DNA of 64,000 nt from Yamadazyma tenuis (lineage: Eukaryota > Ascomycota > Pichiomycetes > Serinales > Debaryomycetaceae). The notes beneath the pieces are model-generated. The model was not told where the DNA came from, made no database searches, and saw nothing but the letters and a program-made list of their open reading frames with translations. Location of the stretch: positions 992,001 to 1,056,000 of the forward strand of contig NC_089461.1 of NCBI RefSeq assembly GCF_029203305.1. Reading direction: 5' to 3'. The stretch's first letter is position 1. Each line of letters starts with the position of its first letter. Both the position numbers and the translations under genes were made by a program. This document shows positions 12,149-13,441 of the stretch, one piece after another.

Positions 12149-13441
12149 ATGGCTACGTATGTAAACCACCCACCAAAGACCCCTTAATGTTTGTAGATAT
12201 CAGGCATTAGCAGAGGGCATGAGAGACGAAGCGAATATTATTATCCTTTCCTCCCAAGAGGCCAAGGGAATTCAAGATTATCTTGCAGCTGATTATTCAA
12301 TTACACTCAAAGTGCCGATGCCTGATAAATCTGTTTTCCTCTGAGTCTAAACAACCGTACCGGGGATGTGATTGGGAATGAACGTGGCTGTTCAGTTCCT
12401 CAATCGACCAAGAGTTTTTGTGGCTCTGGAAACATCCTGATGGTACTGATATTATGGACTAAGAGTAAATAGGTTTTCATCCCCAGGGAGTCATTATATG
12501 ACTTTTTACACCTTACTAACTATTCACAGTACCTTGAAACCAGAAACCTTGATCAAGAAAAAGAAGACCGACGAAAAGATCTTGAAGCAAAGAGCTGCTG
12601 ACAGAGTCGTCAGAAAAGCCGTATGTATAAATTTTCAACCCTAGTTCTTGATATGGTAGTTGATAAAACCCATATATTTTTGAAGATGAAGACACCAATC
12701 TGTATTCGGCTAGCTACGGCAATGTTGTCAATCGTTAACCATCTTTCGGGACTGAGAAAATAGAAGGATCAAAAGAACTATATCATATATGATTATGTTA
12801 CTAACAACCTTTAGGCTAACAAGGAAAAGAGAAAGGCCATCTACGAAAGAAACGCTGCCTACACCAAGGAATACGCTGAAGCCGAAAGAGCCATCATCTC
12901 TGCCAAGAGAGATGCTAAGGCTGCTGGTTCTTACTACGTTGATGCTCAACCAAAGTTGGCTTTCGTCATCAGAATCAAGGGTATCATGAAGATTCCACCA
13001 AAGCCAAGAAAGGTTTTGCAATTGTTAAGATTGACCCAAATTAACTCTGGTGTGTTTGTCAAGTTGACCAAGGCCACCACTGAGTTGTTGAAGTTGGCTG
13101 ACCCATACATTGCTTACGGTTACCCAAGTTTGGCTACCATCAAGCAATTGACTTACAAGAGAGGATTCGGTAAGGTCAACAAGCAAAGAGTTCCTTTGTC
13201 TGACAATGCCATTATCGAAGCTAACTTGGGTAAGTATGGTATTTTGTCTATTGAAGACTTGATCCACGAAATTTACACTGTTGGACCAAACTTCAAGCAA
13301 GCCAACAACTTTTTGTGGCCATTCAAGTTGTCTAACCCAACCGGTGGTTTCAGATCCAGAAAGTTCTTCCACTTTATCCAAGGTGGTGACTTCGGTAACA
13401 GAGAAGAGTACATCAACGCTTTGGTTAAGCAAATGAACTAA
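12149..13441 (+). CDS. RPL7: 60S ribosomal protein uL30 (Rpl7), three exons
   Basis: Three exons: 12149-12156, 12530-12620 and 12815-13441, giving 241 residues. Exon 1 is only ATGGCTAC; the join reads M-A-T-T-L-K-P-E-T. Exon 3 carries the ribosomal L30 core: 'KDAKAAGSYY'-type region, 'RIKGIMKIPPKPRKVLQLLR', 'AYGYPSLATIKQL' and 'RGFGKVNKQRVPLSDNAIIE', nearly identical to S. cerevisiae Rpl7. Both donors are GTATGT and both branch points TACTAAC (12514-12520 and 12799-12805). S. cerevisiae RPL7A/B also have two introns, so the structure is old. Leu is almost always TTG, as in highly expressed yeast genes. Intron 2 contains a snoRNA (see 12675). Confidence 0.96.
12157..12529 (+). other. RPL7 intron 1 (373 nt)
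   Basis: Donor GTATGT at 12157, branch point TACTAAC at 12514-12520, acceptor CACAG ending at 12529; the branch A is only 10 nt before the AG. The intron is long for a yeast. I looked for a second snoRNA: a GTGATTG near 12367 and a CTGA at 12437 flanked by a 5-bp complement are too weak to call. Confidence 0.9.
12675..12762 (+). ncRNA. Box C/D snoRNA in RPL7 intron 2 (snR39/snR59 family)
   Basis: Intron 2 (12621-12814) holds a complete-looking C/D snoRNA. The terminal stem is TATTTT (12675-12680) pairing with AAAATA (12757-12762). The C-like box is AAGATGA (12683-12689, one change from RTGATGA). The D box is CTGA (12752-12755). The antisense element CCATCTTTCGGG (12739-12750), one base before the D box, is the exact complement of CCCGAAAGATGG, a conserved 25S rRNA segment. 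By the D+5 rule the target is the G of CCCG, which I recall as Gm805 in S. cerevisiae, next to Am807. In S. cerevisiae the RPL7 introns encode snR39 and snR59 against the same segment, so host and guide are both conserved. Confidence 0.88.

Follow-up and report, generated by a model that had tools for sequence, protein, structure and literature searches.

The window, which is the whole 64-kb stretch of DNA analyzed (C1:992001-1056000), belongs to a Yamadazyma tenuis genome that was searched over 10,858,197 bases in 8 contigs. Y. tenuis is placed in the Serinales, the CTG clade. Near a carboxypeptidase gene, whose product shares 97% identity with its counterpart in Y. tenuis ATCC 10573, lies a three-exon RPL7 gene, and translation of its spliced exons gave an Rpl7 protein of 241 amino acids with no internal stops. 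In a genome search it was the sole full-length RPL7 copy found; the second match was one other locus with 38% identity. The second intron falls between the codons for ...RKA and ANKEKR... and contains a predicted box C/D snoRNA. The features are collected in Table 1.

Table 1. Features of the RPL7 region, in window coordinates, and of a related locus on contig C3
Feature	Position	Strand	Details
Carboxypeptidase gene near RPL7	10340-11980		
RPL7 host gene	12149..13441	+	exons 12149-12156, 12530-12620, 12815-13441
RPL7 intron 1	12157-12529		
RPL7 intron 2	12621..12814	+	phase 0; GTATGT ... TACTAAC (12799-12805) ... TAG
Box C/D snoRNA with predicted Gm805-equivalent guide	12675..12762	+	RF00134, rRNA scan, shuffles
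Terminal stem, 5' strand TATTTT	12675..12680	+	
C-like box AAGATGA	12683..12689	+	6/7 vs RTGATGA (off-consensus)
Guide ACCATCTTTCGGG, 13 nt	12738..12750	+	exact to LSU CCCGAAAGATGGT
D box CTGA	12752..12755	+	sole CTGA of intron 2
Terminal stem, 3' strand AAAATA	12757..12762	+	
snR13 homologue with Am807-register D arm	C3:1369573-1369681 (L037 3075-3190)		RF01223

The first-pass annotation had placed a box C/D snoRNA at this position, with a terminal stem, a C-like box and a D box, and each of these parts is in the sequence. The stem is 6 bp long and A/U throughout, as a terminal stem of a box C/D RNA, and the D box, CUGA in the RNA, stands near the 3' end. Box C/D guides have 10-21 bp of complementarity just upstream of D or D'; here 13 bp are exact, and a single A separates them from CTGA. 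The guide had been described as a 12-nt element one base before the D box: its position and its exact rRNA match stood, but its length is 13 nt. The snoRNA is separated from the 5' and 3' splice sites by 54 and 52 nt, respectively; for Neurospora, PMC2780460 places most intronic snoRNAs at a distance of 41-60 nt from the 5' site. The folding stability of the intron was unremarkable (z +1.16). No D' guide is claimed: the interior of the snoRNA had one rRNA match of 10 bp or more, and six shuffles had 0-2.

Our search for the 25S rDNA of Y. tenuis itself with an LSU probe allowing up to 2 mismatches gave no matches in the assembly, and none of 9 exact CCGAAAGATG sites in the genome continues as LSU rRNA (534 one-mismatch sites were left out). 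The target was therefore checked in the LSU rRNA of other eukaryotes. Three prokaryote-collection records (L045, L046 and L047) contain the sequence GACCCGAAAGATGGTGAACTATGC, and Rfam identified all three sites as eukaryotic LSU rRNA, evidently a contaminant of these records. We scanned the LSU of L047 and L045, the LSU fragment of L046, and the SSU and 5.8S of L047 with the 88-mer, blind to the position of the guide, and in all three LSUs the top rRNA match was ACCATCTTTCGGG vs CCCGAAAGATGGT. As a side observation, all three records hold eukaryotic rDNA under the title of a bacterial genome, and L045 contains three group I introns at the Rfam cut-off.

The position five bases upstream of the D box, C12747, pairs with the G of CCCGAAAG, opposite G781 of the L047 LSU. 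This is the Gm805 register of SNORD2/snR39b (RF01299), as had been proposed; the Am807 register of RF00134 requires the A two bases on and is not the one found. We take G781 to be the probable equivalent of Gm805 because the S. cerevisiae sites Gm805 and Am807 are two bases apart, in keeping with the yeast rRNA sequence.

Such a guide rarely arises by chance. When the intron was dinucleotide-shuffled 40,000 times, some 12-mer rRNA guide 0-2 nt before CTGA appeared in 38 of the shuffles, and a guide to the rRNA site of the RPL7 snoRNA in none. On both strands of the window, the D box of intron 2 is the only one with a 12-mer rRNA guide 0-2 nt upstream, and within the 10.86-Mb genome each guide 12-mer adjoins a D box at a single site. 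The sequence CCATCTTTCGGG occurs at two genomic sites, the RPL7 intron and a 666-aa open frame, and the latter copy has no CTGA within 3 bases.

A covariance-model search, which the first-pass annotation had proposed as a check, bore out the coordinates but not at full strength. RF00134 (snoZ196/R39/R59) aligned exactly to the predicted snoRNA on the plus strand, from the first to the last model position (cmscan/Infernal), with a score of 31.1 bits (E 0.0039 for a search of 241 bases), which falls short of the family's gathering score, 55. The SNORD2/snR39b model RF01299 reached 13.7 bits on 12730-12794, under its threshold of 37, and at gathering thresholds Rfam gave no matches across the whole window. 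Across the genome at E<=10, with 55 of 3735 first-look candidates scored, RF00134 matched C3:1369586-1369681 (E 0.037) and the RPL7 snoRNA (E 0.041). Eight of 14 prokaryotic control genomes likewise gave sub-threshold RF00134 matches; we therefore treat the score as a pointer and not as proof, and the weight of the case rests on anatomy rather than on the model score. Matches of CRISPR-DR15, ceN114, ceN109 and ZNFX1-AS1_2 at intron 2 were rejected as chance or guide-only matches. The weak CRISPR-DR15 match (19 bits, gathering score 36) lies just 5' of the snoRNA at 12632-12666, and we took it as a small hairpin arising by chance.

The other RF00134 match, on contig C3, overlaps a homologue of snR13 and scores 31.3 bits. 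The snR13 model RF01223 gave 39 bits there (E 2.6e-5 in 601 bases), short of its gathering score of 47; this was its best match in the genome (E 1.1e-4), and the next reached 26.5 bits. The same model matched 5 of 14 control genomes at E<=1, none above the cut-off. The C3 locus has a C box (ATGATGA), a stem (TGGTTA/TAACCA) and the snR13 layout with GAGUGCAUUUGGCUCGAG and AGCUACCU. Its D' element GCATTTGGCT forms 10 exact bp with AGCCAAATGC of the L047 LSU, in agreement with the snR13 target AGCCAAAUGC, which we take to be the Am2280/2281 region. The 26.5-bit match, at C1:1478886, was rejected as a second snR13, as it contains neither of the guide cores and no CATTTGGC.

The D arm of the C3 locus reads TCACCATCTTTCG, then one T, then CTGA, and forms 13 bp with the same LSU segment as the RPL7 guide. 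Its D-5 position falls on A783, two bases downstream of G781, so that the 13-nt elements of the two loci are offset by exactly two bases and the C3 guide is in the Am807 register. In the Rfam consensus of snR13, the region before the D box is UUUUUUUACUUUUAU with the stretch UUUUUUUACUUUUAUCUGA and is U-rich, whereas the C3 locus has an exact Am807-register guide; the targets listed for S. cerevisiae snR13 in PMC5344495 are Am2280 and Am2281 only. The pattern CATCTTTCG-N(0-6)-CTGA had 3 genome matches (the RPL7 intron, C3, where it reads CATCTTTCGTCTGA, and C4) vs 4 in reversed controls, and the pattern alone is therefore no proof. The C4 match was rejected as a guide because it lies inside an 884-aa open frame. 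The C3 locus is the one genomic site of CACCATCTTTCG, whose reversed control gave 2 matches. Open frames flank the locus, with GTATGT (L037 3053), TACTAAT (3214) and an ACAG ending at 3228, an arrangement that suggests a position within an intron of a non-coding transcript.

We found no separate snR39b-type gene in the genome with the SNORD2 model and pattern searches. The model gave 5 weak matches (best E 0.156), in a family that also matches 12 of 14 controls, and all five were rejected because both CATCTTTC and ATCTTTCG are absent from the two strands of their loci. The pattern TCTTTCGGGN{0,2}NTGA stood at chance level, with 2 genome matches vs 5 reversed controls; the match besides the RPL7 locus was discarded, being inside a 543-aa open frame. 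In a search for fungal DNA outside this genome, scans for the RPL7 protein gave 98 pattern stretches in the genome-contig collection and 9 in viral contigs, none confirmed. The guide and snR13 patterns had 0, 0 and 2 matches in viral contigs, and the two, L035 and L036, were dismissed as chance (phage/bacterial-coding-like by eye, no Rfam family at the cut-off).

In S. cerevisiae, Gm805 is served by snR39b and Am807 by snR39/snR59 (PMC5344495, PMC2806949), and the latter are hosted by the second introns of RPL7A and RPL7B (PMC5295604). The first-pass annotation had given the same snoRNA assignments. The Y. tenuis RPL7 snoRNA resembles snR39/snR59 in its host (the second intron of RPL7), its box C/D class, its D-side guide and its LSU segment, D-side guidance from RPL7 intron 2 being the RF00134 arrangement in yeast. 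It differs in register: the snR39/snR59 consensus CACCAUCUUUCGGCUGA addresses Am807, and the Y. tenuis guide is offset by two bases to Gm805. With snR39b/SNORD2 it shares the Gm805 register and the string CAUCUUUCGGGACUGA, but the SNORD2/snR39b guide is on the 5' (D') side, as also listed for the chicken homologue (PMC2653536), whereas the Y. tenuis guide is at D, beside the sole CTGA. In addition, a comparison table gives S. cerevisiae snR39b the mark M rather than I, whereas the Y. tenuis snoRNA is intronic. Given the D-side guide and the RF00134 score of 31.1 vs 13.7 bits for SNORD2, the RPL7 snoRNA looks like an snR39/59-type gene carrying the snR39b register.

Y. tenuis is not alone in having a D-side Gm805-type guide. 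The consensus of Tetrahymena TtnuCD19 ends in ACCAUCUUUCGGGACUGA, as does the RPL7 snoRNA guide. Neurospora crassa CD47 is entered in Table 1 of PMC2780460 with target 26S-Gm785, guide D, 16 bp and an intronic location, and is thus alike in type of target, guide and location; it is 75 nt long vs 88 in Y. tenuis, and this comparison is with a table entry in which the host gene is unnamed. According to the same paper, Rfam already had entries for four N. crassa snoRNAs, snR39 being one of them; CD47, starred in its table, is presumably that snR39. In itself the RPL7 snoRNA is ordinary in kind, and its host intron is well known. The position of the RPL7 intron is shared by 82% of fungi, and a figure on eight intron-poor species labels a box C/D snoRNA at the RPL7 intron as snR59 (PMC8476143).

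Taken together, the genome holds one convincing guide for each of Gm805 and Am807, and these jobs therefore lie in other genes than in S. cerevisiae. We consider it very likely that both RNAs are functional, the RPL7 intron 2 snoRNA guiding the Gm805 equivalent and the C3 snR13 homologue the Am807 equivalent. In box C/D RNPs, the intron is freed by splicing and debranching or by cleavage, exonucleases then shorten the RNA until only its protected C/D core is left, and the RNP places the methyl group on the base that pairs five positions upstream of D. The RPL7 snoRNA would likewise be freed after splicing and trimming, its C/D motif would be bound by snoRNP proteins, and its 13-bp pairing with LSU CCCGAAAGATGGT would bring the methyltransferase to the base that D-5 faces, the Gm805 equivalent; the D arm of the C3 homologue would serve the Am807 equivalent. 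From the sequences we infer expression, processing, RNP assembly and methylation for both RNAs, and likewise their evolutionary history.

The first-pass annotation had suggested a shift of register or a swapped identity in the RPL7 intron. The Am807-register guide in the snR13 homologue gives independent support to the swapped identity and is compatible with either direction of change. At close to an even chance, the RPL7-intron snoRNA is the direct descendant of the snR39/snR59 gene and it was S. cerevisiae that changed, a history opposite to the annotation's wording that leaves the function proposed above as it is. The ancestor would have guided Gm805; in S. cerevisiae the intronic guide would have moved two bases to Am807, snR39b would have taken over Gm805, and the snR13 D arm would have decayed. 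The intronic D guide of Neurospora CD47 (26S-Gm785, PMC2780460) and the like ending of TtnuCD19 favor this history, and a Gm805 guide of the CD47 layout may be the older state, in which case "shifted" applies to S. cerevisiae. Against it, Table 1 of PMC2780460 does not name the CD47 host, and the Neurospora snR13 homologue, CD1, is entered there with a D' target only. We lean slightly towards S. cerevisiae as the derived lineage. A fuller version, in which the ascomycete ancestor had a Gm805 guide in the RPL7 intron and a double-guide snR13 for Am2280/2281 and Am807, S. cerevisiae then reassigning both as the D arm decayed, is tentative and somewhat less probable.

It is unlikely that, in this lineage, an snR39/59-type gene of the RPL7 intron was replaced by an incoming snR39b-type snoRNA of separate origin. 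The register and the string CAUCUUUCGGGACUGA do match the SNORD2/snR39b consensus, and movement of snoRNA genes is documented (PMC8476143), but the D-side guide and the higher RF00134 score speak against such a replacement. Less probable still is a decayed relic, a former guide that persists in the intron but has ceased to be made or used, to which the off-consensus C box, the all-A/U stem and the sub-threshold score could be ascribed; the guide is exact over 13 nt, the D box is perfect, and no second Gm805-type guide was found in the genome. Chance resemblance is very improbable: 12-mers recur, and CCATCTTTCGGG is also in an unrelated open frame, but none of the shuffles gave the rRNA site of the snoRNA, and the host intron equals that of yeast snR39/snR59.

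From the preferred assignment, Gm805 to the RPL7 intron and Am807 to snR13, it appears that neighboring rRNA methylations can both retain a guide while the guides switch gene and register; host gene or name is then an unreliable basis for snoRNA orthology. PMC5033589 reports snR39 and snR59 as not found in Candida parapsilosis, C. orthopsilosis and Lodderomyces elongisporus. This gap fits a redistribution of guides, and the Am807 guide of these species may hide in snR13; search thresholds, which the RPL7 locus would miss, could also explain it. If true, the ancestral arrangement with Gm805 in RPL7 and Am807 in snR13 would also account for the seeming absence of snR39/snR59 from Candida-clade species. 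No description of the pairing, Gm805 guided from RPL7 and Am807 from snR13, appeared in the titles, abstracts and passages of the open-access literature searched, which leaves out supplements and most subscription journals, and the available portions of PMC3511168, PMC2926782, PMC3596301, PMC2656528, PMC6171561 and PMC8522698 hold nothing decisive. Part of the arrangement may already be present in the C. albicans snoRNA lists to which PMC5033589 refers, and these lists or its S1 Table may give Gm805 as the target of a Candida RPL7-intron snoRNA.

RPL7 intron 1 gave no Rfam matches at E<=10. It contains a strong predicted branched hairpin at 12357-12446 with a GTACC/GGTAC closing stem. The whole intron folded with z -2.78 (0 of 100 shuffles as stable), and the piece 12355-12494 with z -1.59 (14 of 200 as stable). 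PMC12311795 describes, for S. cerevisiae, a conserved structure spanning bases 200-355 of RPL7B intron 1; it binds Rpl7 and acts as a repressor of splicing. The Y. tenuis hairpin is like this structure by position, and the branch site of the Y. tenuis intron is the consensus TACTAAC (12514) rather than UGCUAAC.
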